Part shown: positions 13,274 to 27,462 of the stretch, piece after piece
Numbering within the stretch: the stretch's first letter is position 1
Layout of the letters: the number at the start of each line of letters is the position of its first letter
Assembly (NCBI RefSeq): GCF_029395535.1
Contig: NZ_CP113920.1
Location: 992,001 to 1,056,000 of the forward strand
Origin: Bifidobacterium sp. ESL0732
GTDB taxonomy: Bacteria > Actinomycetota > Actinomycetes > Actinomycetales > Bifidobacteriaceae
DNA: 64,000 nucleotides
Direction of reading: 5' to 3'
Made by a program: the position numbers and the translations under genes
Notes under the pieces: model-generated
Database searches by the model: none
What the model was told of the DNA's origin: nothing
What the model saw: the letters and a program-made list of their open reading frames with translations, nothing else

Positions 13274-14140
13274 ATGGGCGCTAGGCCTGAGATAATAACA
13301 GCTGCAATCGCCGTCTTTGACGATTCTGGAAATCTAGATGAGCAGGGTAATAAGGCCTTCCTCAAACGGGTGGAACCGTATGTGGACGATGTGCTTGTGG
13401 CAGGGACGACGGCTGAGTTTCCTGCTCTCAGTGGCAATGAGCGTGCCTTGCTCTCCCGTTGGGCCATTGAATTGTTCGGTCCCGAACGTACGATCATCCA
13501 CATCGGTGCGCCGTCGGTGAGGCAGGCATTGGACAATATGCAAGCTGCTAAGGATGTCGGCGCGACGAGATTCGCCGCCATTACACCTTATTACTACACC
13601 GCTTCGCAGCATGGCGTGTTGGAATATTACCAAGCGTTGCGTGATGCAATCGATACGGAGCTGAACGCATATATCTACCCGGATGTCGCATGTACTGATG
13701 TCACGCCGGAAACGTTGACGCAGCTGCAGGAAGTCGGTCTCGATGGTGTGAAGCTTTCGGGTCTTGCCTCACAGCGGGTCGAACAATATCGGGATGCCGC
13801 ACCCCAGCTGAAGCTGTGGTCGGGCAACGACGCTGATCTTCCTCATGTTCTTAAGTGCGGGGGAGCAGGAGTGGTTTCCGGTGTCTCGGGTGTGGCACCG
13901 ACCGCATGGGCCGATTTGCGTGAGGCCTTCGTCTCTGGCGACCAGAAGACCATAGATGAGGCGCAGAAGAAAGTCGAGCGTCTGGTAGAGGTCCTTGGTC
14001 CCAGCATCAACCGTCTGAAGTATGCCTTGGGTGTGCTTGGCATTCCAGCTGGTATTTGCCGAGTTCCTATTGATCAACCCGATGAGCAAACGAAGGAGGA
14101 AATTGCCGCTGTATTGAAAACATCTAGAGTTTTATCCTGA
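13274..14140 (+). CDS. DapA/NanA-superfamily pyruvate aldolase (N-acetylneuraminate lyase-like)
   Basis: A 288-residue class I aldolase barrel. The catalytic set is present: Schiff-base Lys160 in DGVKLSG, Tyr133 in AYIYPD (the family usually has YNxP), and a GTTAE loop (residues 44-48) where lyases normally have GTTGE or GSTGE. These enzymes split or form a bond between pyruvate and an aldehyde. The neighbours (cytoplasmic sialidase-like protein, MHS symporter, arabinose-5-P isomerase, ribokinase) argue against lysine synthesis and for breakdown of a 3-deoxy-2-ulosonic acid. GAGGGAG precedes the ATG by six bases; it is the first gene of the operon. Confidence 0.85.
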   Translation: MGARPEIITAAIAVFDDSGNLDEQGNKAFLKRVEPYVDDVLVAGTTAEFPALSGNERALLSRWAIELFGPERTIIHIGAPSVRQALDNMQAAKDVGATRFAAITPYYYTASQHGVLEYYQALRDAIDTELNAYIYPDVACTDVTPETLTQLQEVGLDGVKLSGLASQRVEQYRDAAPQLKLWSGNDADLPHVLKCGGAGVVSGVSGVAPTAWADLREAFVSGDQKTIDEAQKKVERLVEVLGPSINRLKYALGVLGIPAGICRVPIDQPDEQTKEEIAAVLKTSRVLS

Positions 14141-14153
14141 AATAAGGTGATAG

Positions 14154-14188
14154 GCCTCCACCCTGGAGTGAAAAGGCAGGGAGGAGGC
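14154..14188 (+). other. Intra-operon stem-loop
   Basis: GCCTCC (14154-14159) pairs with GGAGGC (14183-14188), with an inner CCTG/CAGG pairing. It sits between the aldolase and the transporter and has no T-tract, so it is more likely an RNA-processing or stability element than a terminator. Confidence 0.4.
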
Positions 14189-14222
14189 GATCCAATCATT
14201 GTTTACAGATAAAGGAAAATAC

Positions 14223-15677
14223 ATGAAAACAACAACTGGTGAAGCAGTTGCTTCAACACAAGATTCTAGTCCAGTTGATAAGAAATATCTGGCGAAAGTC
14301 GTTTTTTCAAGTTTTATTGGCAATACGCTTGAGTATTACGATTACTTTGTATATGGGACTGCGGCGGCCATTGCCTTCCCGACAGTGTTCTTCGCTCATC
14401 AGAGCCCATTCGTCGCCACGCTTTCATCGTTCGCCACATTTGCCGTCGGTTTCATCGCAAGGCCTCTCGGCGGTGTGATTTTCGGACAACGAGGGGATAA
14501 GAAAGGCCGTAAGTCCACACTCATTATGACGCTTTTGGTGATGGGTCTTGGCACTTTCCTGATCGGATGCATCCCATCGGTGGCGACCATCGGTATTGCG
14601 GCTCCAATCGCCCTTATCGTTCTTCGTCTCATCCAAGGGTTCGCCGTGGGTGGAGAATGGGGCGGTTCCATGATTATCGTTCTGGAATCCGCACCGACAA
14701 AACACCGTGGATTCTGGGCTGCATGGCCGAATACCGGCGGTTTCTCCTCCCAGATCATTATCACCCTCATCTTTGCGTGGGTCTACACGCTGCCGAAGGA
14801 CCAGATGATTAGCTGGGGTTGGAGGATTCCGTTCTGGTTCTCCGCCGTCGTTATGCTTGTGGGCCTGTGGATGCGTCGTTCACTCGAGGAAAGCCCTGTC
14901 TATACCAAGGCCAAGGCCGAACTTGAGAAGCAAAGCCGTAACCGTGCACTCACTGCCGAGAACTTCGATGCGACCGTGGCCGATCAGAAGAAAGCCAATG
15001 CCGAAAAGGCCGCTGCTCCTGCTGCTCCGGCACAGCAAGAACACGGATTGCTCTATAAGGTCTTCGTCGAGGATTGGCGTAACCTGCTGCGTATCATCGG
15101 TTTGCGTTTCGCGGAATCGGTGCCGTACTTCCTGCTCTGCACCTTCGCTTTGTCATATGCTCCAGGGCATCTGGGCATTCCCAAGGATCAGCTTAATTGG
15201 GCGATTCTTATCATGTCCGTGCTCGCCTTCCCGGCACATGGTCTCTTCGCGGCATTGTCCGATAGAATCGGGCGTAAGCCTGTCTATCTGATCGGCACCA
15301 TCATCGTGTTCATCATGGCCTTCCCGTTCTTCATGGCTTTGCAGACCAAGTCGTTCATCGTGATTACTTTGGCCTACATCGTCATGCTCAACCTTGGTCA
15401 CAATGCAATTAATGCGGTGCAGCCTTCGTTCTTCGCTGAGCTGTTTCCGGCCGACCGGCGCTATTCCGGGGCTGCTGCGGGTCGTGAGATCGCGTCCATC
15501 CTTTCCGGTGGACTCACCCCGTTCATCGCCACCGCTCTTGCCGGCGCTGACGGTTCACGCTGGTATCTGGTAGCCATCTACACCATGATCGCTGCGGTCA
15601 TCACGGCAATTGCGCTGTGGCTGACCCCTGAGACCTATCACAACAACCTCAACTCGTTGACGAGGGATGCCAAATAA
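14223..15677 (+). CDS. MFS metabolite:H+ symporter (MHS family, ShiA/ProP/KgtP-like)
   Basis: 484 residues and twelve predicted membrane segments. Family marks: GNTLEYYDYFVYGTAAA in TM1, RPLGGVIFGQRGDKKGRKSTL (loop 2-3 motif), LRLIQGFAVGGEWGGS, and LSDRIGRKPVY in the second half. A Lys/Ala-rich cytoplasmic loop lies at residues about 225-275. MHS members import organic and sugar acids such as shikimate and 2-oxoglutarate with protons. ATG 14223 follows AAAGGAAA; the ATG at 14199 has no ribosome site. It is presumably the importer for the substrate of this operon. Confidence 0.88.
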   Translation: MKTTTGEAVASTQDSSPVDKKYLAKVVFSSFIGNTLEYYDYFVYGTAAAIAFPTVFFAHQSPFVATLSSFATFAVGFIARPLGGVIFGQRGDKKGRKSTLIMTLLVMGLGTFLIGCIPSVATIGIAAPIALIVLRLIQGFAVGGEWGGSMIIVLESAPTKHRGFWAAWPNTGGFSSQIIITLIFAWVYTLPKDQMISWGWRIPFWFSAVVMLVGLWMRRSLEESPVYTKAKAELEKQSRNRALTAENFDATVADQKKANAEKAAAPAAPAQQEHGLLYKVFVEDWRNLLRIIGLRFAESVPYFLLCTFALSYAPGHLGIPKDQLNWAILIMSVLAFPAHGLFAALSDRIGRKPVYLIGTIIVFIMAFPFFMALQTKSFIVITLAYIVMLNLGHNAINAVQPSFFAELFPADRRYSGAAAGREIASILSGGLTPFIATALAGADGSRWYLVAIYTMIAAVITAIALWLTPETYHNNLNSLTRDAK

Positions 15678-16822
15678 TGAACAAATTACCTGAACGCTGG
15701 ATGGTTTCAGGCAATTCCGAACTCTGGCGGCAGTGCCATGCATCGACATTGGTGCGGTCGCCGGAGAGCGGGGTCGTTACTGTCGCTTGGTTTGCCGGCG
15801 CCCATGAAGGGGCAGTCGACAATGCTATCTGGATGAGCCGGGGAATACCCGCAGGTCCTTGGGACGCGCCAAAAGTCGTGATGCGTGGACACCGTAGGGC
15901 CTGGTGGAACCCGGTGCTTGCCTACGGTCCCGATCGTAGACTGTGGCTTTTTGCAAAAAATGGTCCACAAATCTCATATTGGAAGACGTGGTATCGCGTT
16001 TCGGATGATGACGGGGAAACCTGGAGCGTTGAACGTGAACTGGTTCCCGATGATGACCAAGGAGGTAGAGGGCCGGTCAAGAACCCGCCTCTGGTGACCT
16101 CCTTGGGTACGTGGGTCGCGCCCAATTCAATAGAATCCGGCGGAGACAACCCGCAATGGAACTGTCGTTTCGACATCAGCCGAGATAGCGGTCGTACATG
16201 GCAGCTTCGTCGTGTTCCGCTGAACCGCTCGAAGCTCAAAGGAGCGGGAATCATACAACCTACCCTTTGGGAGATGAAAAATCGGTCCGGCAATGACGGT
16301 ATGCCGACTCTTGTGGCTATGTGCCGTTCGACAGAAGGCAAGGCTTTCCGTACTGTCTCCAAGGATGACGGTTCAACGTGGAGCGAGGCTGTGACAGTGG
16401 ATCTGCCGCAGAATAACTCCGGCTTCTGCGCCGTCAAGCTTGATGAGGATGGTCGGACGGCAGCCATCGTGCATAACCCGGTCTCTGATTCTTGGGGTGC
16501 CCGATGCCCGCTTTCGATTTCCATCACCAAAGATGGCGGGTTGACTTGGCGTCAGTGCTACACCATTGAGGACGGCAAGACGTCGCTCATGATCCCGACA
16601 GGTAGCCATATGCCGCAATTACACACATCGGCCGATGCGGTTGAAGGATATACCGGTAATGACGGAGGCATTATCACCTCTGGCATTAATGAATATTCAT
16701 ATCCAACCGCAATACGAACGGATGATGACGAGTTGCTGGTCAGCTATACATGGCAGCGCCGTGCAATCGTTGTGGCTCGTGTCCCTCTTGATGCACTCAA
16801 AGCCGAATATGACAAAGCCTGA
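15677..16822 (+). CDS. Cytoplasmic sialidase-fold protein (BNR/Asp-box family)
   Basis: 381 residues with four clear Asp-boxes (S/T-x-D-x-G-x-T-W) starting at residues 109, 168, 228 and 284, spaced as in a six-bladed sialidase propeller. The N-terminal CHASTLVRSPESGVVTVAWFAG-type segment and later SHMPQLH and NEYSYPTAIR stretches fit the BNR_2-type group. No signal peptide or membrane segment, so it acts on something already imported. True sialidases use an arginine triad, Tyr/Glu and Asp; I cannot verify these here, and many relatives have other or unknown substrates, including Kdo hydrolases. ATG overlaps the transporter stop by one base. Confidence 0.8.
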   Translation: MNKLPERWMVSGNSELWRQCHASTLVRSPESGVVTVAWFAGAHEGAVDNAIWMSRGIPAGPWDAPKVVMRGHRRAWWNPVLAYGPDRRLWLFAKNGPQISYWKTWYRVSDDDGETWSVERELVPDDDQGGRGPVKNPPLVTSLGTWVAPNSIESGGDNPQWNCRFDISRDSGRTWQLRRVPLNRSKLKGAGIIQPTLWEMKNRSGNDGMPTLVAMCRSTEGKAFRTVSKDDGSTWSEAVTVDLPQNNSGFCAVKLDEDGRTAAIVHNPVSDSWGARCPLSISITKDGGLTWRQCYTIEDGKTSLMIPTGSHMPQLHTSADAVEGYTGNDGGIITSGINEYSYPTAIRTDDDELLVSYTWQRRAIVVARVPLDALKAEYDKA

Positions 16823-16874
16823 GTGTGTCGAACAGAAAAGATGCCATTCATTTATGAATGATGAAGGAAGTTTT

Positions 16875-17495
16875 ATGACTGAGAAAAAGGAAATCGTTTC
16901 GTTGATTGAGGAGGTGTTTCATTCCGAGGTCGAGGCCATAGAGGACGTGGAGAGTCATGTTGATTGCGCGTATACCGATGCCGTCGAATTGATTTTGTCC
17001 GGCAAAGGAAGAGTGATATTTACCGGCGTCGGTAAATCCGGCCACATTGGTTCAAAACTTGCAGCCACATATGCGAGTCTTGGGATTCCCTCATTCTTTA
17101 TGCATTCGACCGAAGCCGTCCATGGAGATTTGGGGATGGTTACCAAAGAGGATATCGTGATTGCCATTTCCAACAGTGGAGAGACCAATGAAGTGCTTCG
17201 CGTCATTCCTTCGCTTAAGGCCAAGGGCGTGAAAATCATCTCAATCACTGGGAATCGTGAATCCACACTGGCGAAAGCTTCGGACATTCCCATTGAGGTC
17301 CATGTCGACCATGAGGCCGACAAGTTCGATCTTGCTCCATCCAACAGTTCGACTGCCACTTTGGTGGCCGGTGATGCAATAGGACTGACGTTGTCCAGAC
17401 TCATCAACTTCTCCGAGCGAGATTTCGGATTGAACCACCCTGGCGGTGCACTTGGTAAAAGGCTCGTCGAACAAGGAGTCCTCAAGGAGATTTAG
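16875..17495 (+). CDS. KpsF/GutQ-type sugar-phosphate isomerase (arabinose-5-phosphate isomerase-like), SIS domain only
   Basis: 206 residues forming one SIS domain: GRVIFTGVGKSGHIGSKLAATYASLG, HSTEAVHGDLGM, ISNSGETNE, and SNSSTATLVAGDAIGLTL then RDFGLNHPGGALGKRL. These match D-arabinose-5-phosphate isomerases, which interconvert ribulose-5-P and arabinose-5-P. The tandem CBS domains of KdsD are missing. In Gram-negatives the enzyme feeds Kdo synthesis for LPS; here there is no LPS, and the pairing with an aldolase and ribokinase suggests the catabolic direction. ATG 16875 follows GAAGGAAG; an upstream frame extension is without ribosome site. It is one base from the kinase ATG. Confidence 0.85.
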   Translation: MTEKKEIVSLIEEVFHSEVEAIEDVESHVDCAYTDAVELILSGKGRVIFTGVGKSGHIGSKLAATYASLGIPSFFMHSTEAVHGDLGMVTKEDIVIAISNSGETNEVLRVIPSLKAKGVKIISITGNRESTLAKASDIPIEVHVDHEADKFDLAPSNSSTATLVAGDAIGLTLSRLINFSERDFGLNHPGGALGKRLVEQGVLKEI

Positions 17496-18422
17496 ATGCG
17501 CAAGATTCTGGTAATCGGAAGTTTCATGACAGACTTGGTGTTCCGTTCACATGAATTCGTGCGCGAGGGAGAAACCGTCACTGGTCTTTCATTCAATCGT
17601 TTCCCTGGAGGGAAAGGAGCGAATCAAGCGGTCGCCGCTGCGCGTTCCGGCGCTGAGGTCACTATGATGGGAAAACTCGGGAAAGATGATTTCGGTGAAG
17701 AACAGATAGCTTCATTGCAGGCTTCTGGCATCGATCATCATGCGGTCTTGTTTACCGACGAGGCGGTTTCTGGCGTTGGCAATCCTCAGCTGGATGACCA
17801 TGGACGTAATCGCATCGTCATTATTCCAGGAGCGAATTCACTGTTCACCCCGGTAGAGATAGAACATATGGAGTCATTGATTGAGGACAATGATATCATC
17901 GTTCTGCAGCTTGAAATACCTCTGGAAACGGTGTATCGGGCAATCGAGATCGCTCATCGACGCGATAAGACGATCATTCTCAATCCCGCACCGGCACAAC
18001 GGATTGATGCGAAACATGCTTCCATGGTCAATTGGATTGTTCCCAATGAACACGAGGCTGAAACATTGAGCGGCATCCGGGTCGATTCTTTGCAATCGGC
18101 TGAACGAGCGTCGGAAAAGCTGATGAGGCAGGGCTTCGGCAATGTCGTCATCACACTTGGCTCACACGGTTCTTTCTATAAGACCGCGGATGCTGAAGAT
18201 AAGATAGATGCGTTTGAAGTCAACGCAGTCGATTCAACTGCAGCCGGTGACGAGTTCATCGGAGCATTTGCCAGCCAGATAGCCAAAGACTCCGATATTT
18301 CCAATGCCTTGGTATATTCATCGGCTGCTTCTGCTCTTGCGGTCACAAAATTAGGAGCGCAAGCCTCACTTCCGACCAGTCAGGAAATCGAAGCCTTTTT
18401 GCATGAGCGGAATGCGGTTTAG
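17496..18422 (+). CDS. Ribokinase-like PfkB sugar kinase
   Basis: 308 residues with the ribokinase pattern: GSFMTDLVFRSHEFVREGETV, FPGGKGANQAVAAARSGAEV, AVSGVGNPQLDDHGRN, ILNPAPAQ, WIVPNEHEAETLSG. The C-terminal anion-hole motif reads DSTAAGDEF (residues 246-254), with Ala249 in place of the usual Gly of GAGD; catalytic Asp252 is kept. Ribokinases phosphorylate ribose at O5, and some also take D-arabinose. The gene follows the KpsF-type isomerase with no gap, so its product is probably that isomerase's substrate, arabinose-5-P. A strong terminator follows. Confidence 0.88.
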   Translation: MRKILVIGSFMTDLVFRSHEFVREGETVTGLSFNRFPGGKGANQAVAAARSGAEVTMMGKLGKDDFGEEQIASLQASGIDHHAVLFTDEAVSGVGNPQLDDHGRNRIVIIPGANSLFTPVEIEHMESLIEDNDIIVLQLEIPLETVYRAIEIAHRRDKTIILNPAPAQRIDAKHASMVNWIVPNEHEAETLSGIRVDSLQSAERASEKLMRQGFGNVVITLGSHGSFYKTADAEDKIDAFEVNAVDSTAAGDEFIGAFASQIAKDSDISNALVYSSAASALAVTKLGAQASLPTSQEIEAFLHERNAV

Positions 18423-19951: not shown

Positions 19952-20352
19952 TGTTTACATCCTCCATATAGATTAATTGACCCGTGGATGTTACCACGGC
20001 TACCAAGTTTTCAGTTTACTCACGAGCTGTTACAAAGACTCCTGGATTTCCGTCCGTTTTGGACCCGGGAAAGTTCAATATCCCGAAGTTTGTTCGGCGA
20101 TGATCTTCGCCAAAAATCTCGGTTGCTCTATTTTTTCAAGGGAATGAAAAAATACACACGTTGTATGAAAAAAATTGCTTATGTTTTTCCTTTAATATCG
20201 AGTAAAACCTTAAATAAGGCGATAAGAAGGAAAGCTTTCTTGTTGGGAATTTCATTTGCCGGACTTTAAATTGGAGATGAGCTTGATAGCTGGCGGTCCC
20301 TTTCAGGACCGTCCCATTTGAGATTAAAAGAAGTTAGGCAAGGAGGCTAAAT
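19952..20352. other. Divergent control region of ackA and the glycyl-radical operon
   Basis: 401 AT-rich bp. Two direct copies of ATGAAAAAA start at 20144 and 20165, 21 bp (two helical turns) apart, as expected for a DeoR-type repressor site. A stem-loop, CGGTCC (20294-20299) with GGACCG (20306-20311), lies in the likely leader of the kinase mRNA. Neither is followed by a T-tract. Confidence 0.4.
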
Positions 20353-21348
20353 ATGGAGAATAATCCAGAAGAGCGTAAGGACTTGGTATCGTTCGGTGAT
20401 ATCAATGCTGATTACACCCCAATTTTCCGCCGTGGTTTTTCCAAACAGCGTTGCTATGAGATGAACCTCGGAGGCACGGCATCGAATGTCGCCGTCGCTG
20501 CAGCAAGACTTGGTGCGAATACCTCATTCGTTGGCAAGGTCGGTGACGATTTCATGGGAAGGTTCCTGCGCAGGGAGCTGCAGAGCAACGGTGTGGATTG
20601 CAGTTCGCTGCTCACCGATCCTGATCTGTTCACTTCCCATGTGTTCGTCAGTCTTTTCAACGGGGAGCGCAGCTTCAGTTTTGCCGTCGATGGCAGCGCC
20701 TCGCTCAATGTCAATACTGATGAATTGGATCTTGACAAGGTTCTCAATACCCGCATGCTCTATGTGGCGGGCGTGAGTTTCGTCGATGCTCCTTTGGGTC
20801 GTACGGCGCATGTTTTGCTTTCCGAAGCCAAGAAACGCAATATCCCAGTGGCCATCGACATGAACTATCGTCCGACCGTCCACAAGTCCCCACAGAAACT
20901 GATCGACGCATTGAACGAGGAAATGAGCAATATATCAATCCTCAAGGGTTCCGTCGAAGATTTCGATGTCGTGTTCGGCACTCGTGATCTTGAAGCGGTG
21001 TCCCGTTTGGTCAACTCTAAGGGCGTGCGTCTGTTGATCATGACCGAAGATGCAAGAGGAGCCTCCTGGGCATGGGATGGCGAGGAGCACAGCATCAACG
21101 GATTCCGCACCAACCTGATCGACACCACCGGCGCAGGCGACTGTTTCATGGGCGCGTTCCTTTACACGCTTCTGCATCATTGCGATCTGTGCGACCTAAA
21201 GAAGGACGAGCTCAACGAGATGGTCCGTTTCGCCAACGCCGCAGCGTCGCTGTGCGTGGAAGGATACGGAGCCGTCGAAGCGATGCCGTATCCAGCCGAG
21301 GTCGAGGAACGCAATGAAAGCCAGACGATCGACGAAAGGAGTAAGTGA
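20353..21348 (+). CDS. PfkB-family carbohydrate kinase of the glycyl-radical locus
   Basis: 331 residues. Substrate site MNLGGTASNVAVAAARLGAN near the N terminus, VAIDMNYRPTVHKS in the middle, and the ATP/anion-hole motif DTTGAGDCF (residues 257-265; catalytic base Asp263). It resembles fructokinase/ribokinase-type kinases that phosphorylate a terminal hydroxyl of sugars or polyols. First gene of the operon, with AAGGAGG six bases before ATG. Given that the pathway appears to end in DeoC, its substrate should be a C5 compound; a pentitol is my best guess, deoxyribose or another sugar the alternative. Confidence 0.88.
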   Translation: MENNPEERKDLVSFGDINADYTPIFRRGFSKQRCYEMNLGGTASNVAVAAARLGANTSFVGKVGDDFMGRFLRRELQSNGVDCSSLLTDPDLFTSHVFVSLFNGERSFSFAVDGSASLNVNTDELDLDKVLNTRMLYVAGVSFVDAPLGRTAHVLLSEAKKRNIPVAIDMNYRPTVHKSPQKLIDALNEEMSNISILKGSVEDFDVVFGTRDLEAVSRLVNSKGVRLLIMTEDARGASWAWDGEEHSINGFRTNLIDTTGAGDCFMGAFLYTLLHHCDLCDLKKDELNEMVRFANAAASLCVEGYGAVEAMPYPAEVEERNESQTIDERSK

Positions 21349-21349
21349 G

Positions 21350-22093
21350 ATGAAAAGCATAAAACAGATGCATTGGTGGACCCTGGTCACCGATCGTGAG
21401 CAATGGACACTGAAACCCTATTCCCTGTTACGCAGAATCCTCGTCAATCTTGTCGGCGTCGTCATCGTCTCCATCGGCATCGGCGTCTGCAACGTCGGCT
21501 TCGTGGGCGTTGACCCGTACGCGGCGTTCCTGATGGCACTTTCCCATCTCACGGGCATCGCCTACACGTGGATGGTGCCTCTGGTGAACACGATTCTATT
21601 CATACTGATTGTTATTCCTTTCGATCGCTCGATTTTCGGCTTCGGCATGATCACCAACATGACGCTCGTAGGATTCTTCACTGATACGTTCACTTCGATC
21701 TACCATCACTTCTACAACCCGACGTTCTCTTGGTGGATTCTCGCGATTCATCTGGTCATCGGCCTGTTCTTCTTCTGCCTCGGCGTTTCCCTGCAGATTC
21801 GTCCGAACCTCGGTGCCTGCCCGTATGACGGTATCGCCCCCAGCCTGCACCGTCACTTCCCGAAGATCAGCTATCGCGTGTTCCGCACCTGCCAAGATAT
21901 CATCACGATTATCATCGCCGGCATCCTGATCAAGTTCAACCTCGGTATCGGCATCCTCGGTATCGGCACGATCATCATGGGATTCTTCATCGGCACCATC
22001 GTGGATTGGTTCAGCAAGCACTTCACCGAAAAACTCCTCGGTGTCCGTGGTGAGAACAACGAGCCTATCAAGAAGGCTGCACTCGCACAGTAA
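21350..22093 (+). CDS. YczE/YitT-like integral membrane protein, possible transporter
   Basis: 247 residues with about six hydrophobic helices; the pattern NLVGVVIVSIGIGVCNVGFVGVDPYAAFLMAL and later LGVSLQIRPNLGACPYDGIAP resembles the YczE/YyaS/YitT group of membrane proteins of unknown function. ATG 21350 is two bases after the kinase stop, with AAAGGAG upstream. No other transporter lies in this operon, so it may move the substrate across the membrane, but no family member with that activity is known to me. Confidence 0.7.
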   Translation: MKSIKQMHWWTLVTDREQWTLKPYSLLRRILVNLVGVVIVSIGIGVCNVGFVGVDPYAAFLMALSHLTGIAYTWMVPLVNTILFILIVIPFDRSIFGFGMITNMTLVGFFTDTFTSIYHHFYNPTFSWWILAIHLVIGLFFFCLGVSLQIRPNLGACPYDGIAPSLHRHFPKISYRVFRTCQDIITIIIAGILIKFNLGIGILGIGTIIMGFFIGTIVDWFSKHFTEKLLGVRGENNEPIKKAALAQ

Positions 22094-22184
22094 AACATCT
22101 TTACTTGCTACGGCTTTATCGGTCTGAAAAGGCAATGAGGCCATAGCGACATTGGTTATATGACGATGGAAAAAGGAGGTCATT

Positions 22185-24599
22185 ATGACCAGAACAATGA
22201 TGAAAACCAAAGGCAAGATAGGTTTGCTTGCCCCCAAGCGCACGGAGATTCTCAATGATGAGATACGTTCTGTCAAACCGAGAATCGATGTCGAACGGGC
22301 GGGAATCGTTACCGAAAGCTACGAGAAGACCGTCGGATTGCCGCAAGTGCTTCGCCGAGCGTATGCGTTGAAAGATCTGTTGATGAAAAAGACCATTTTC
22401 ATCGGCGACAACGAACTAATTGTGGGCAACCACGGTTCCACACTCCGTTCTGCACCGATTTATCCGGAATTCGGCAGTCTTTCACGCGAAGAGCTCGAGA
22501 AGATGCCGGTTCGCCAGGTCGATACCCTCCAGATCGCACCTGAGGAGATCGACTATCTGGTCGATGACATTTTCCCGAAGTGGGAAGGCTATTCCACCAG
22601 TTCGCTTGCTCGTAACCTGCTGCCTTCGCAGATCACTGATATCCTCGACTCTCCATATCGTCCCTTTGACCCGCTGAGCAGAGCCTCGTCCGGTTACGGA
22701 CATTATCAGCCCAATATCAAGCGGATTATCGACGAAGGTTTTGAGGGTTCAGAGCGTCTTGCGGCAAAGAAACTTGCGCAGCTCGATCCGACAGATCTGG
22801 AATATTCCGACAAGCGTTCGTTCTATATGGCTGTTCAGGTCGTTGTGGACGGTGTGCGCATCTTCCAGCAGCGCTTCTCGGACTTGGCGACCGGCATGGC
22901 CAATGAGACCGATGACCCAGAACGTGCCAAGGAACTGAGACTCATCGCCAGCAATTGTGCTCAGGTACCGTATCGCCCGGCCCGCAATTTCTTCGAGGCG
23001 GCTCAATCCTATTGGTTCACGCTGCTCATCGATTACTGCGCCCAGAACGGCGGTGCCATTTCCGGCGGACGTTTCGACCAGTACATGTACCCCTTCTACG
23101 TCAAGGATCTCAAGGACGGAACCTTCACCAAAGATGAGATTTCGACCATCATCCAGGCACTGTGGGTCAAGCACATGGATCTGATCAAGGCCAAGTCCTA
23201 TTCGTCGGCACGCAACAATGGCGGTTTCGCCACTACTATCGGCATCACCCTCGGTGGCGTCGACAAGAATGGCAATGACGCGGTCAACGACTTGTCGTAT
23301 CTGTGTCTCGATGCAGAAGAGGCCGTGTTCAATTCCGAGCCGAACGTGGGCATCCGTGTCAGCAAGAAGACTCCGGATGAGTTCATCAATCGAGTCCTTC
23401 GGATTCTCGGCCACAAGGAAGGCGGCAAGGACCCATTCTTCAATGACGAACGGATCATCCCCGCCCTGATGCGCGAACACGGCATGAGCCTCGAAGAAGC
23501 GCGTGACTGGTCGTTGGTGGGTTGTGTGGAACCGACCGGCCAAGGCAATACCATGGCTCGCACCAACAGCTGCTACTTCAACCTCGCCAAGTGCCTCGAG
23601 CTGGCAATCAACGACGGAAAATGCCCGGTCTCCGGCCAGCAGCTCGGCCCGCACACCGGCCATTTCGCCGATATGAACACCTTCGACGACGTTAAGAAGG
23701 CCTACAGCGAGCAGGTCGACTACTTCGTCTCGCTGATGGTTTGCTCGCTCAATACGATGGCGACGCTTCACAAGCGCCAGACGCCGCACATCTATTCCTC
23801 GATCCTGATCGACGGATGTCTTGAATCCGGCCATGACTGCACCAATAGCGGTGCTCTCTATGATGCCACAGGCGTCAACGGCGTGGGTCTTTCGGATGTG
23901 GCGGATTCCCTGCTGGTCATGAAGCAGCTGGTGTTCGACGAGTCGAAGATGAGCCGTGAGGAGCTCGTCAAGTCTCTTGAGACTGACTTCTCCGACAAGG
24001 TGATCCAACAGCGTTGTCTGAACGTACCGAAGTACGGAAATGACAACGACGAGGCGGATGAGATGGTCGCATTCGTGGCCAAGCAGTATTCGGATTCCGT
24101 GCGTCGGTTCAAGAGCCCGGGCGGCGGCCACTATATTCCAGGCCTGTTCTGCCTTTCTTCGAACACGCCGCTTGGCCGTCAAGTCGGTGCGCTTCCCAGT
24201 GGCCGTAATGCGTTGACACCGTTGGCCGACGGCGGCATCTCGCCCAAGCAGGGTGAGGACGTCGAAGGGCCGACCGCCGAGATGAAGTCGGTGGCCAGCT
24301 GGGACCAGACACAAGCGATCAACGGTGTCTGCCTGAACATCAAGTTCGTGCCTGCTTTGATTCGTAATGCCACTGATCGAAAGAAGGTCGTCGACCTGAT
24401 TCGCGGTTATTTTGATATCGGCGGGGTCCATATCCAGCTCAACGTCCTGTCTTCAGAGACGCTCATCGACGCGCAGAAGCACCCCGAGAACTATCGCGGC
24501 TTAGTAGTTCGTGTAGCCGGATATTCGGCGTTCTTCGTGGAGTTGGACCGCGACATCCAGAACGAGATCATCTCTCGAACCATCAACGAAAGTGTCTGA
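22185..24599 (+). CDS. Glycyl radical enzyme (diol dehydratase/PFL2-like group)
   Basis: 804 residues, full length. The C-terminal glycyl-radical loop is RVAGYSAFF with radical Gly779. The active-site loop is SLVGCVEPTGQGN, with thiyl Cys447 and base Glu449. GCVEP is the mark of dehydratase-type GREs (glycerol, propanediol, choline and hydroxyproline enzymes) and not of pyruvate formate-lyase, which has adjacent cysteines. The rest of the loop (TGQGNTMARTNSCYFNLAK) does not match a subgroup I can name. GGAGG precedes the ATG. With a kinase before and DeoC after, a pentitol-5-phosphate dehydratase making 2-deoxyribose-5-P is proposed. The enzyme would be destroyed by oxygen when active. Confidence 0.92.
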   Translation: MTRTMMKTKGKIGLLAPKRTEILNDEIRSVKPRIDVERAGIVTESYEKTVGLPQVLRRAYALKDLLMKKTIFIGDNELIVGNHGSTLRSAPIYPEFGSLSREELEKMPVRQVDTLQIAPEEIDYLVDDIFPKWEGYSTSSLARNLLPSQITDILDSPYRPFDPLSRASSGYGHYQPNIKRIIDEGFEGSERLAAKKLAQLDPTDLEYSDKRSFYMAVQVVVDGVRIFQQRFSDLATGMANETDDPERAKELRLIASNCAQVPYRPARNFFEAAQSYWFTLLIDYCAQNGGAISGGRFDQYMYPFYVKDLKDGTFTKDEISTIIQALWVKHMDLIKAKSYSSARNNGGFATTIGITLGGVDKNGNDAVNDLSYLCLDAEEAVFNSEPNVGIRVSKKTPDEFINRVLRILGHKEGGKDPFFNDERIIPALMREHGMSLEEARDWSLVGCVEPTGQGNTMARTNSCYFNLAKCLELAINDGKCPVSGQQLGPHTGHFADMNTFDDVKKAYSEQVDYFVSLMVCSLNTMATLHKRQTPHIYSSILIDGCLESGHDCTNSGALYDATGVNGVGLSDVADSLLVMKQLVFDESKMSREELVKSLETDFSDKVIQQRCLNVPKYGNDNDEADEMVAFVAKQYSDSVRRFKSPGGGHYIPGLFCLSSNTPLGRQVGALPSGRNALTPLADGGISPKQGEDVEGPTAEMKSVASWDQTQAINGVCLNIKFVPALIRNATDRKKVVDLIRGYFDIGGVHIQLNVLSSETLIDAQKHPENYRGLVVRVAGYSAFFVELDRDIQNEIISRTINESV

Positions 24600-24611
24600 G
24601 AGGTAAAAGAA

Positions 24612-25607
24612 TTGACAACGGACCATCCGTCCATGGGACGAGTATTCAATATCCAGCGGTTCTCGATTCACGACGGACCGGGCATACGCACCGTGGTGTT
24701 CTTGAAGGGCTGCTCCTACTCGTGCACCTGGTGCGCCAATCCCGAAGGCATCAAGCCGTATCGGCAGGTGATGTTCTCGTCGAAGAAATGCATCGAATGC
24801 GGCCTTTGCGTGCAAGCGGCGCAGAACGGTGAAGTCGAGATGCAGGACGGGAAATTGGTGCTGCACCGTGAGCGGATACGTCCGTCGCAACTCGAATGGG
24901 TGAAGGCCTGTCCCACAGGAGCTTTGAAGATCGTAGGCAATATGCAAAGCCCTGAGGAAGTCACTGAAAAGGTCTTGCGGGACATGCCTTTCTACCGCAG
25001 AAGCGGGCAGGGCGGCGTCACCTTCTCTGGCGGGGAGCCGTTGGTGCAGGCCAGATTCGTCGATGAGACGGCAAGGCTGTGCAAAGAGCACGGTCTGCAT
25101 ACCGCGGTCGAAACAGCTGCTGGTGTGCCGCTGAAATCGATTGTCGAGGTGAGCGACAACATCGATCTGTTCATCTGCAGCCTGACGTCCACCGACCCTG
25201 AAACCTACCGAAAGTACATGGGACATTCCAACGAAACCTCATTGGACAATATCCGTTGGATGGCACATTACGACCCGGAGCGGCTCTGCGTGAGGTCCCC
25301 GTTGATACCGGGCATCAATATGGAAAACGGTCAGGTCGAAGACATGATTGAATTTCTGGCTGACGCCGGAGTGAAATACTACGATGTGCTGCCATTTCAC
25401 CGTTTGGGCACCTCAAAATACACAGGGCTGGGAAGAGCCTACGACTTTGCCAAGCTCGACCCGCCCAGTGATCAATGCATGGAAGAAATCCGTGGCGAAA
25501 TTCGTCGTCACGGCATGAGTACGGATTTTCCCAAAGGCCTGTCCAACGGGCACAAGGCGGAAATACGTCAAGATTTTTCAGTTACAAAAGGAGTAAAAAA
25601 TGACTGA
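24612..25607 (+). CDS. Glycyl radical enzyme activating enzyme (radical SAM)
   Basis: 331 residues. The radical SAM cluster motif CSYSCTWC has cysteines 34, 38 and 41; before it stands FSIHDGPGIRTVVFLKGC, typical of GRE activases. A ferredoxin-like insertion follows (CIECGLC, then KACPTGA), then the GGVTFSGGEPLVQ SAM-binding motif. The TTG start at 24612 has AGAGG upstream; the first ATG (24633) is an alternative but has no ribosome site. It installs the glycyl radical on the enzyme encoded 12 bp upstream and overlaps deoC by 8 bp. One [4Fe-4S] site seems shorter in cysteines than in classic two-cluster activases. Confidence 0.93.
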   Translation: MTTDHPSMGRVFNIQRFSIHDGPGIRTVVFLKGCSYSCTWCANPEGIKPYRQVMFSSKKCIECGLCVQAAQNGEVEMQDGKLVLHRERIRPSQLEWVKACPTGALKIVGNMQSPEEVTEKVLRDMPFYRRSGQGGVTFSGGEPLVQARFVDETARLCKEHGLHTAVETAAGVPLKSIVEVSDNIDLFICSLTSTDPETYRKYMGHSNETSLDNIRWMAHYDPERLCVRSPLIPGINMENGQVEDMIEFLADAGVKYYDVLPFHRLGTSKYTGLGRAYDFAKLDPPSDQCMEEIRGEIRRHGMSTDFPKGLSNGHKAEIRQDFSVTKGVKND

Positions 25608-26325
25608 AGGAACAACACAACGCAAACCTGCGAAAGAGATGACGAAAGCTGAACTGGCCAGATATATCGACCATACGATTCTCCGTCCAGAAGCCACCGA
25701 AGACGAGATCAAGCAGATCACGCGAGACGGTGTCGGTTTCGGTGTGGCTTCCGTCTGTGTCAATCCGGCATCGCTTGATTTTGTGTCTCCTATCGTGGAG
25801 AACACCAATACAGGTATGTCCGTCGTCTGCGATTTCCCCTTCGGGCAGGGAACCGCCGAAGACAAGACGCAATTGGCAAAGGAATATTGCCGCCACGAAG
25901 GCCTGACGGATCTGGACCTGGTCATCAACTACGGTATGGTGCGCTCGGGTCATGCGGCGCAGGCCGGTGAGGAGCTTCGTGGTGCCGTCGATGCCTGCAG
26001 GGAGGCAGGAGTGGTTTCCAAAGTCATTATCGAAACGGATGCGCTTTCCGATGAGCAGATTGTCGAAGCCACCGAAGCGGTGATTGCCTCCGGTGCTGAT
26101 TTCGTCAAGACCTCGACCGGTTTCTATACTGGAGGCCCTACGGTTGGCGGATCGGTGGAAGTGATGAAGAAGGTCATGAAAGCTGCTGACGGGCGTATCA
26201 AGGTGAAGGCTTCAGCGCACATTCGCACCCGTGAGCATTTCTTGGCGCTTATCGACCTTGGTGTCGATCGTATCGGTCTAAACTGCACTTCCACGCCGAA
26301 AGTGCTGGCCGGTGCCGCTGAGTAA
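25600..26325 (+). CDS. deoC: Deoxyribose-phosphate aldolase
   Basis: 241 residues. Catalytic residues of class I DERA are visible: Schiff-base Lys170 in GADFVKTSTGF and Lys203 in VKASAHIRT, with the DLVINYGM strand. It splits 2-deoxyribose-5-P to glyceraldehyde-3-P and acetaldehyde. ATG lies inside the activase gene with AAAGGAG upstream, so translation is coupled. Being last in a kinase-GRE-activase operon, rather than in a nucleoside operon with phosphorylases, suggests that deoxyribose-5-P is made by the GRE. A terminator follows. Confidence 0.93.
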   Translation: MTEGTTQRKPAKEMTKAELARYIDHTILRPEATEDEIKQITRDGVGFGVASVCVNPASLDFVSPIVENTNTGMSVVCDFPFGQGTAEDKTQLAKEYCRHEGLTDLDLVINYGMVRSGHAAQAGEELRGAVDACREAGVVSKVIIETDALSDEQIVEATEAVIASGADFVKTSTGFYTGGPTVGGSVEVMKKVMKAADGRIKVKASAHIRTREHFLALIDLGVDRIGLNCTSTPKVLAGAAE

Positions 26326-26509: not shown

Positions 26510-27334
26510 TCATAGCGGTTTGGTGCCTATCCCGCTGTTTTCGGCGTTGGCTTCCGGACCGACCGTGATCAGTTGGGTATGGGCTTCGGCGAGCTGCTCC
26601 GGCTTGATGTTTGCGGGCGTCTTGTCGGTGATGATGTAATCGAAATCGGACAGGGTTCCTGCGATGTACAGGGCACGTTTGCTGAATTTCGAATTGTCCG
26701 CCAGAAGAATCTTGGTTTCGGATATTGAAAGCATGGCCGACTTCAGTTCGGCGGTTGCGTCATAGGAATCGGCGGCGCCACGGCTGGTGACGGAAGTCGT
26801 CGAGATAAAACAGATGTCCGCTTGCAATGATTGCAATGCGTGAATCGCCATGTGGCCATGAAAAGCGTTGGCCCAAGGATAATAAAGTCCTCCCGTCATA
26901 TAGAGACGTATACCTGAGGCGCTCATCAATTGTTCCCCGGCGAAGACGGAATTGGTGATGACGGTGAGCGGAGCTTTCTTTTTGATGAAATCCAACAGAG
27001 GTAGTACTGTCGAGGAGTCATCGAGGATGATGGTCGAATCCGGACGAATAAATTCCGAAGCTCTGGTACAGATGATTTCCTTGGCTGCAAGGTTGCTTTC
27101 GTATCGTGAAGAAGGCGGTATCTCGCTGGCGAAGGAGCGCGAAAGCACGACGATGCCGTTGTCGAGCTGAAGAATGCCTTCCTTTTCGAGCTTCTTGATA
27201 TCGCGATAGATGGTGACATCCGAAAAATGCAGCTGTTCAGCGATATCCTTGACCTTGGTTGGTCCGTTTTCCGCAAGCAGATGCTGGATTTGGACGTGAC
27301 GCGCGCCGATGTCTTCTCGTTGATTTCCCGGCAT
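26510..27334 (-). CDS. DeoR-family transcriptional regulator
   Basis: 274 residues. N-terminal HTH: IQHLLAENGPTKVKDIAEQLHFSDVTIYRDIKKLEKEG. The C-terminal sugar-phosphate sensor domain has TIILDDSSTVLPLL, LTVITNSVFAGEQL, LYMTGGLYYPWANAFHG, DICFISTTSV and ILLADNSKF. ATG 27334 is four bases after AAGAAGG; the ATG at 27337 is too close. DeoR proteins bind phosphorylated sugars and usually repress neighbouring catabolic operons; the kinase-GRE-deoC operon, convergent with it, is the evident target. Confidence 0.9.
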   Translation of the reverse strand: MPGNQREDIGARHVQIQHLLAENGPTKVKDIAEQLHFSDVTIYRDIKKLEKEGILQLDNGIVVLSRSFASEIPPSSRYESNLAAKEIICTRASEFIRPDSTIILDDSSTVLPLLDFIKKKAPLTVITNSVFAGEQLMSASGIRLYMTGGLYYPWANAFHGHMAIHALQSLQADICFISTTSVTSRGAADSYDATAELKSAMLSISETKILLADNSKFSKRALYIAGTLSDFDYIITDKTPANIKPEQLAEAHTQLITVGPEANAENSGIGTKPL

Positions 27335-27462
27335 CATACCTTCTTTTCCTGTTTCGACCTGGTTGCTACTGGAATGGAAAGCCTTAATCGTAATGGTTCG
27401 TGAAATTCAAAACCGGTGTGCAGCGTTTCTTTTATTTGTCTAAAAATAATCTCGTCATAAAA

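Follow-up and report, generated by a model that had tools for sequence, protein, structure and literature searches.

Gene content of the operon

The 64,000-nucleotide stretch analysed here (the window) covers positions 992,001 to 1,056,000 of contig NZ_CP113920.1 of Bifidobacterium sp. ESL0732, whose 2.39 Mb genome is assembled as one contig. It contains an operon of five genes encoding, among others, a glycyl-radical enzyme (GRE), its activase and a DeoC-type aldolase, and we propose tentatively that this operon serves the breakdown of a pentitol. The genes of the operon and the adjoining regulator gene are as follows, with profile scores in bits.

20353 to 21348, + strand: PfkB-family carbohydrate kinase (PF00294, 182.8 bits)
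21353 to 22093, + strand: YczE-type membrane protein (NF052291, 63.9 bits, under the cut-off of 205)
22185 to 24599, + strand: GRE, assigned to the eliminase/dehydratase type (Cys447, Glu449, Gly779; PF02901, 595.5 bits; PF01228, 111 bits)
24612 to 25607, + strand: radical-SAM GRE activase (TIGR02494, 297.9 bits; cut-off 174.35)
25600 to 26325, + strand: DeoC-type class I aldolase of a divergent subfamily (TIGR00126, 161.5 bits; cut-off 117.3)
26510 to 27337, - strand: DeoR-family transcriptional regulator (family match), part of the inserted block described below (93-95% identity to its counterparts in genomes G085 and G090)

From kinase to aldolase the genes are spaced by 4, 91 and 12 bases, and those of the activase and the aldolase overlap by 8 bases. 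The frame of the membrane protein is open back to 21314; the start at 21353 was chosen, in agreement with G090 and G085. A preliminary description of this DNA had read the locus as a tight operon of kinase, membrane protein, GRE, activase and deoC, accompanied by a DeoR regulator. The coordinates and strands of the five genes are borne out by the domain matches, and the regulator is indeed present, with the qualification that it lies on the opposite strand and is convergent to the operon. The label deoC holds insofar as the protein scores over the TIGR00126 cut-off, and has to be narrowed in that it belongs to a divergent subfamily, with 34-37% identity to the canonical bifidobacterial DeoC proteins compared.

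The kinase matched 22 NCBIfam models and reached the cut-off of none of them (0/22). Its best model was IolC-N (183 bits against a cut-off of 300), and the fructokinase and ribokinase models gave 165.7 and 119.9 bits; naming a kinase substrate by homology was therefore dropped. The YczE-type protein is a possible transporter. In the activase, inspection by eye of the ferredoxin-like insert found just four cysteines (CIECGLC ... ACPTG), as in the activase of the Chloroflexota genome described below, and on this pattern the enzyme likely carries one auxiliary iron-sulfur cluster rather than two.

Conservation of the module and its insertion site

The GRE was found in three of 112 genomes of the genus (the source genome, G085 and G090), at 96-100% identity. 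In G085 and G090, which represent two further species, the kinase, YczE-type protein, GRE, activase, aldolase and regulator are collinear with the window at 93-99.6% identity. The operon block is situated in the window between ackA and pta, genes that are adjacent wherever else an ackA match was obtained (14/14 genomes, from 18 others searched; the 14 comprise 12 of the genus and 2 of other genera). Since ackA and pta adjoin in relatives, the block was inserted between them. Its genes have a GC content of 52-55%, and ackA, pta and the phosphoketolase gene 59-64%. As judged from these sequences, the best explanation is that the operon was acquired horizontally, as a mobile and co-inherited unit.

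Outside the genus, a Chloroflexota metagenome-assembled genome (MAG) from a fen (L026) carries kinase, GRE, activase and aldolase genes collinear with those of the window operon, with identities of 51, 67, 55 and 62%, respectively, and with the same 8-base overlap between activase and aldolase. The L026 module has no YczE gene; YczE is kept in the three bifidobacterial species. Because the gene order recurs in another phylum, the four enzymes probably act together, and this order, kept across phyla for four unlike enzymes, is in our assessment the strongest evidence for a single pathway. The near-identical block in two further species, taken with the collinearity of four enzymes in L026, argues that the operon is not a chance assembly.

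Relatives of the GRE were sought more widely by scanning genome contigs for exact 8-residue matches, a procedure that may miss divergent orthologs and that returned 371 stretches and 351 relatives, the best 80 of which were retained. Among these best 80 of 351, only two exceed 50% identity, namely L026 (71%) and a GRE from a Treponema MAG (L027, 52%). In 396 sampled genomes of the phylum, at E ≤ 1e-150, only the source genome and one 38% relative appeared, and among 301 genomes sampled from the phylum to which G507 belongs, G507 alone passed E ≤ 1e-170. Of 72,556 plasmid records, 24 matched the GRE at E ≤ 1e-120, none with at least 60% identity and with 37% for the top one among the matches listed. 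In viral contigs one set of patterns gave 0 matches, and another gave 25 stretches with no relative among them.

Class and active site of the GRE

Besides its two Pfam matches, the GRE has the glycyl loop RVxGYS of the PFL-like GRE superfamily, and its Cys447 and Gly779 are invariant in 32 aligned GREs. It has Gly446-Cys447 in place of the Cys-Cys pair of pyruvate formate-lyase (PFL) proper, and scores 176 bits on the PFL model TIGR01255, against a cut-off of 994.2. Alignment thus confirms the earlier claim of a radical-dehydratase loop (Cys447, Glu449, Gly779) with no PFL cysteine pair, and from these features the GRE is of the eliminase/dehydratase type and not a PFL. Gene set, conservation as a unit, enzyme classes and catalytic residues can all be read directly from the sequences compared here.

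Within this type the enzyme falls into none of the named groups that could be compared. The score on the PflD model (PRK09983) is 536.5 bits against a cut-off of 1109, and those on the models for HypD, CutC and sulfopropanediol dehydratase are 547.8, 511.4, 544.5 and 535.1 bits against cut-offs of 1100, 1050, 1000 and 1000. Naming the GRE by homology group was dropped, since neither it nor its relatives L026 and L027 reach any NCBIfam equivalog cut-off. In a tree of 50 GREs (a quick tree with Shimodaira-Hasegawa-like approximate likelihood-ratio (SH-aLRT) support only, with its deep forks open and four rows on long branches) the window GRE, L026 and L027 form a clade with 100% support, whose neighbours are L028 and L029 (93 and 99%). 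This clade, which has no characterised member in the tree, lies apart from the PflD, YbiW and HypD branches, and is separated with 100% SH-aLRT support from the glycerol/1,2-propanediol dehydratases (1r8w, 5i2a, 9rco). The preliminary description had proposed clustering with a characterised group of other substrate as a test of its interpretation; no such clustering was seen among these 50 GREs, which leaves the interpretation unrefuted.

The predicted structure of the GRE has a mean pLDDT (predicted local distance difference test) of 92.2. Among solved structures, those of 1,2-propanediol and glycerol dehydratases come closest to it (Z 52.5-53.5, 35-38% identity), followed by CutC, PflD, HypD and YbiW (most at Z 49.8-51.2), and isethionate lyase is also among the matches; sequence scores against 1r8w, 5i2a and 9rco are 558, 525 and 485 bits. 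We take the substrate contacts of glycerol dehydratase to be H164, H281, S282, Y339, E435 and D447. The GRE keeps His164 and Glu435 and has Gly290 for His281, Ala291 for Ser282, Thr351 for Tyr339 and Asn461 for Asp447. By this argument from alignment and presumed contacts, its pocket should be larger and more open and fit a larger polyol. The GRE has T350, G389 and, at position 290, a small residue in common with PflD. In L026, however, residue 389 is Thr, and none of the three is found in YbiW, an enzyme that likewise binds a phosphorylated substrate; these residues are therefore weak evidence for a phosphate.

The genes around the neighbouring GREs were also inspected. The L028 GRE is followed by genes for an aldehyde dehydrogenase, a 6-phosphofructokinase, a class II fructose-1,6-bisphosphate aldolase, a Zn-dependent dehydrogenase, a major facilitator superfamily (MFS) transporter and part of a transketolase, of which only the 6-phosphofructokinase and the class II aldolase are over function cut-offs. 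The L027 GRE (51-52% identity) lies downstream of two permeases nearest to ribose/galactofuranose/arabinose ATP-binding cassette models, under their cut-offs, and the L029 GRE lies among genes for tripartite ATP-independent periplasmic (TRAP) transporters. As predicted from gene context, the L027 and L028 neighbourhoods suit carbohydrate substrates; none of the three neighbourhoods reveals which compound is acted on.

Another GRE of the source genome (L001, G000:C1:2051095-2053473) groups with E. coli YbiW with 100% support and has similar copies in several relatives; from this placement it is a candidate 1,5-anhydroglucitol-6-phosphate lyase.

The DeoC-type aldolase

The operon aldolase scores 161 bits on the DeoC model, whereas the canonical DeoC proteins of 14 genomes of the genus score 258-290 bits; the low-scoring kind (161-168 bits) occurs in six genomes of the genus. 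In a tree with flagged long branches, including that of a second DeoC-family gene of G507, it forms a separate branch (100/100 support) with the aldolases of L026, of three further bifidobacterial genomes (G003, G073, G102) and of two enterococci. The motifs DLDLVINYG, VKTSTG and KVKAS, which presumably carry the catalytic Asp and the two Lys, align with canonical DeoC, and all three residues are kept. The subfamily has insertions of 4 residues after STGF and of 2 residues near the end. Reading the protein as an ordinary DeoC was rejected on account of its separate subfamily, these insertions and altered phosphate-site motifs, which are detailed below. On sequence grounds it seems to be a dedicated enzyme. 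A separate canonical DeoC is encoded elsewhere in both G085 and G090, and the operon gene is the only DeoC-family match of the source genome; the second DeoC-family gene of G507 is 32% identical.

The other members of the subfamily gave no substrate hint from their contexts in G003, G073, G102 and the two enterococci. In G003, G073 and G102 the aldolase genes (L118:8516-9226, L119:8967-9725 and L120:8685-9452) have genes for a GntR regulator and a DUF218-like protein nearby; in the two cases tested, the DUF218 match is at the Pfam cut-off or slightly under it. The enterococcal genes have an AraC regulator and YdeI-like neighbours. G102 has another GRE, 33% identical and on a different contig. 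A Treponema contig (G508:C204:8124-25393) has three DeoC-family matches in about 17 kb.

Proposed pathway

Taken together, the genes suggest that the operon serves the anaerobic breakdown of a pentitol, with ribitol and D-arabitol as the likeliest candidates. The pentitol would be taken up, with the YczE-type protein as candidate carrier, and phosphorylated at C5 by the PfkB kinase. The activase would place the radical on Gly779 of the GRE, whose Cys447 would then abstract hydrogen from C1, with loss of water at C2, to give a 2-deoxy aldose phosphate (2-deoxy-D-ribose-5-phosphate), and the DeoC-type aldolase would cleave this product to acetaldehyde and glyceraldehyde-3-phosphate. Acetaldehyde would finally be reduced to ethanol, and therefore no polyol dehydrogenase would be needed; the operon has no gene for one. 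That the kinase acts first and the GRE dehydrates ribitol-5-phosphate or D-arabitol-5-phosphate is the reading we favour, tentatively, and the reaction itself, in which diol dehydration of a pentitol phosphate yields 2-deoxy-D-ribose-5-phosphate, is about equally tentative. What we infer here is the substrate, which of kinase and GRE acts first, the product, and the modes of transport and regulation; the pentitol-phosphate interpretation as a whole is partly supported: plausible, redox-balanced and unproven.

The two substrates, already singled out in the preliminary description, are consistent on paper, on the condition that the aldolase has ordinary DeoC specificity. By stereochemical reasoning on that basis, among common pentitol phosphates only those of ribitol and D-arabitol would give 2-deoxy-D-ribose-5-phosphate, and the configuration at C3 is wrong in xylitol, mannitol, sorbitol and galactitol. 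The inferred sum, pentitol (C5H12O5) to ethanol, acetate and formate, balances exactly, and would run via acetaldehyde reduction, PFL and Pta/AckA. Over NCBIfam cut-offs, the source genome encodes a PFL (L002, another of its GREs; TIGR01255, 1002.2 bits), Pta and a bifunctional AdhE (1309 bits); it also has an acetate-kinase-family protein, and a phosphoketolase gene, over its own cut-off, stands beside pta and ackA. Because PFL, Pta and AdhE are general enzymes, their presence is consistent with the route and no proof of it.

Several observations weigh against this pathway. The GG(I/V) and G-x-S motifs, which we take to hold the phosphate in canonical DeoC, are changed in the operon aldolase, with AHIR for GGIH and GLNCTS for GVS-A (L026 has GNVR for GGIH, and GLSYKST where the window protein has GLNCTST). 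Because of these changes and the insertions, 2-deoxyribose-5-phosphate may not be the substrate of the aldolase, and a phosphate site in the GRE was not identifiable from its sequence. Among the genomes searched, the complete module occurs in only four (the three bifidobacteria and L026). No kinase or aldolase lies beside the L027 GRE, and in that genome kinase matches reach only 29-30% and DeoC matches 25-37% identity. The aldolase subfamily, in turn, occurs in G003, G073 and G102 with no GRE ortholog, and in the two enterococci, where no annotated GRE lies within 12 kb of it.

The changes in the aldolase might also accommodate a substrate that is longer or placed differently. It is conceivable, if rather unlikely, that the substrate of the GRE is the phosphate of another polyol or of an anhydro-sugar, with the divergent aldolase adapted to the product; of the alternatives to the pentitol route this one carries the most weight. 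Examples would be an anhydropentitol phosphate, or a hexitol phosphate leading to erythrose-4-phosphate, which the bifid shunt could use. The residues that the GRE has in common with PflD, a 1,5-anhydromannitol-6-phosphate lyase (T350, G389 and small 290, with Thr at 389 in L026), point the same way. Such substrates fit poorly in other respects: the C3 configuration of mannitol, sorbitol and galactitol is, by the reasoning above, wrong for an aldolase of DeoC stereochemistry, and an anhydropentitol opened in the manner of YbiW or PflD would yield a 1-deoxyketose, which no DeoC-type enzyme known to us cleaves. Moreover, the GRE is closer to the diol dehydratases than to PflD, and it lies outside the PflD and YbiW clades.

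Kinase and GRE might also act in the opposite order to that proposed, the GRE converting the free pentitol into 2-deoxyribose by dehydration and the PfkB protein serving as a deoxyribokinase ahead of aldol cleavage, an order we consider improbable. PfkB kinases mostly phosphorylate sugars and include a deoxyribokinase, which counts for it, and the top-ranking structures for the GRE, the propanediol and glycerol dehydratases, are those of enzymes whose diol substrates carry no phosphate. The operon kinase is closer, however, to the IolC-N and fructokinase models than to that of ribokinase, though it reaches the cut-off of none. The known GREs that feed an aldolase are, to our knowledge, YbiW and PflD, and both act on phosphorylated substrates, as PMC12441222 describes them.

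Cleavage of a C-N or C-S bond is known in the GRE superfamily, CutC and isethionate lyase are among the structure matches, and the tree places no characterised enzyme in the window clade. It is nonetheless very improbable that the GRE acts in this way on an amino or sulfo polyol and hands the resulting aldehyde to the aldolase, as the module has no amine- or sulfite-handling gene and the GRE falls far short of the cut-offs of the CutC, HypD and sulfopropanediol models. Finally, although the operon aldolase is the sole DeoC-family protein of its genome, we give hardly any credence to a role in deoxynucleoside salvage beside an unrelated GRE operon, since its pairing with GRE, activase and kinase recurs collinear in another phylum, G085 and G090 have a separate canonical DeoC, and G507 has a second DeoC-family gene.

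Candidate regulatory sites and neighbouring genes

Two palindromes lie upstream of the kinase gene and together form a candidate operator.

20129 to 20154, no strand assigned: perfect palindrome TATTTTTTCA-N6-TGAAAAAATA, candidate operator
20167 to 20189, no strand assigned: imperfect palindrome (GAAAAAAAT ... ATGTTTTTC), candidate second operator

The pattern TTTTTTCAN{4,8}TGAAAAAA occurs once in the window, against a mean of 0.00 over 100 shuffles. In G085 and G090 the right arm of the perfect palindrome is identical and the left arm nearly identical, and the imperfect palindrome is unchanged across the three bifidobacterial species, a conservation judged among close relatives. The repeat scan reported no inverted repeat upstream of the regulator gene. 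Scans for promoters (4 sites against 5.5 in shuffles) and terminators (4 against 7.8) gave no excess.

Just 401 bases separate ackA and the kinase gene in the window. In G085 and G090 pilin and sortase genes lie between them (L121:3080-6180 and L122:2789-5884; identified by Pfam in G085 and by likeness in G090), with no transporter gene there. A second sugar cluster by ackA, at 13274-18422 of the window, encodes a lyase of the dihydrodipicolinate synthase/NanA family (PF00701), an MFS symporter, a sialidase-like protein with BNR repeats, a KpsF/GutQ-like sugar-phosphate isomerase and a ribokinase that exceeds the TIGR02152 cut-off. This cluster was not found in L121 or L122, the stretches that surround the operon in G085 and G090, respectively.

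Comparison with known systems and significance

The nearest described logic is that of anhydroglycolysis, in which a GRE cleaves a C-O bond in a phosphorylated sugar of the polyol type and an aldolase follows. There, the class I aldolases FsaA and FsaB yield glyceraldehyde-3-phosphate and a small carbonyl compound. The window operon differs in having a PfkB kinase in place of phosphorylation by the phosphotransferase system and a DeoC-type aldolase in place of Fsa, and its GRE is of another clade, with 35% identity to PflD and 32% to YbiW. The cleavage of phosphorylated anhydro-polyols by these two enzymes is described in PMC12441222.

With the B12-independent glycerol and 1,2-propanediol dehydratases the GRE shares the catalytic Cys, Glu and Gly and the diol-dehydration chemistry proposed for it. 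It differs from them in sequence (35-38% identity) and in four presumed substrate contacts, and its operon adds a kinase and an aldolase. The aldolase, for its part, resembles canonical DeoC in the Asp and both Lys and in scoring over the TIGR00126 cut-off, and differs in identity (34-37%), in its separate branch (100/100), in the insertions of 4 and 2 residues and in the changed phosphate-site motifs.

A DeoC-type aldolase and acetaldehyde also feature in the catabolic loci of sugar-phosphate-utilizing (SPU) bacterial microcompartments, according to the accessible parts of PMC8217296 and PMC4207490, which make no mention of a GRE in these loci. The window operon shares with them the aldolase type, acetaldehyde and a catabolic role, but has no gene for a shell protein or an aldehyde dehydrogenase. 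Among the open-access matches listed, a scope that leaves subscription papers largely outside, none describes, as judged by title and opening of the abstract, a GRE acting on pentitols or a GRE-DeoC pathway.

Even with another substrate, the cross-phylum module offers three functions that can be tested jointly, those of the GRE, the PfkB kinase and a divergent DeoC subfamily. If the proposed reaction is correct, a deoxyribose unit would be made with neither ribonucleotide reductase nor polyol dehydrogenase, and fermentation of ribitol or D-arabitol to ethanol, acetate and formate would leave an anaerobe in redox balance. The GRE superfamily would then gain a pentitol-phosphate dehydratase reaction, and a bifidobacterium-like anaerobe would have a dehydrogenase-free pentitol pathway.

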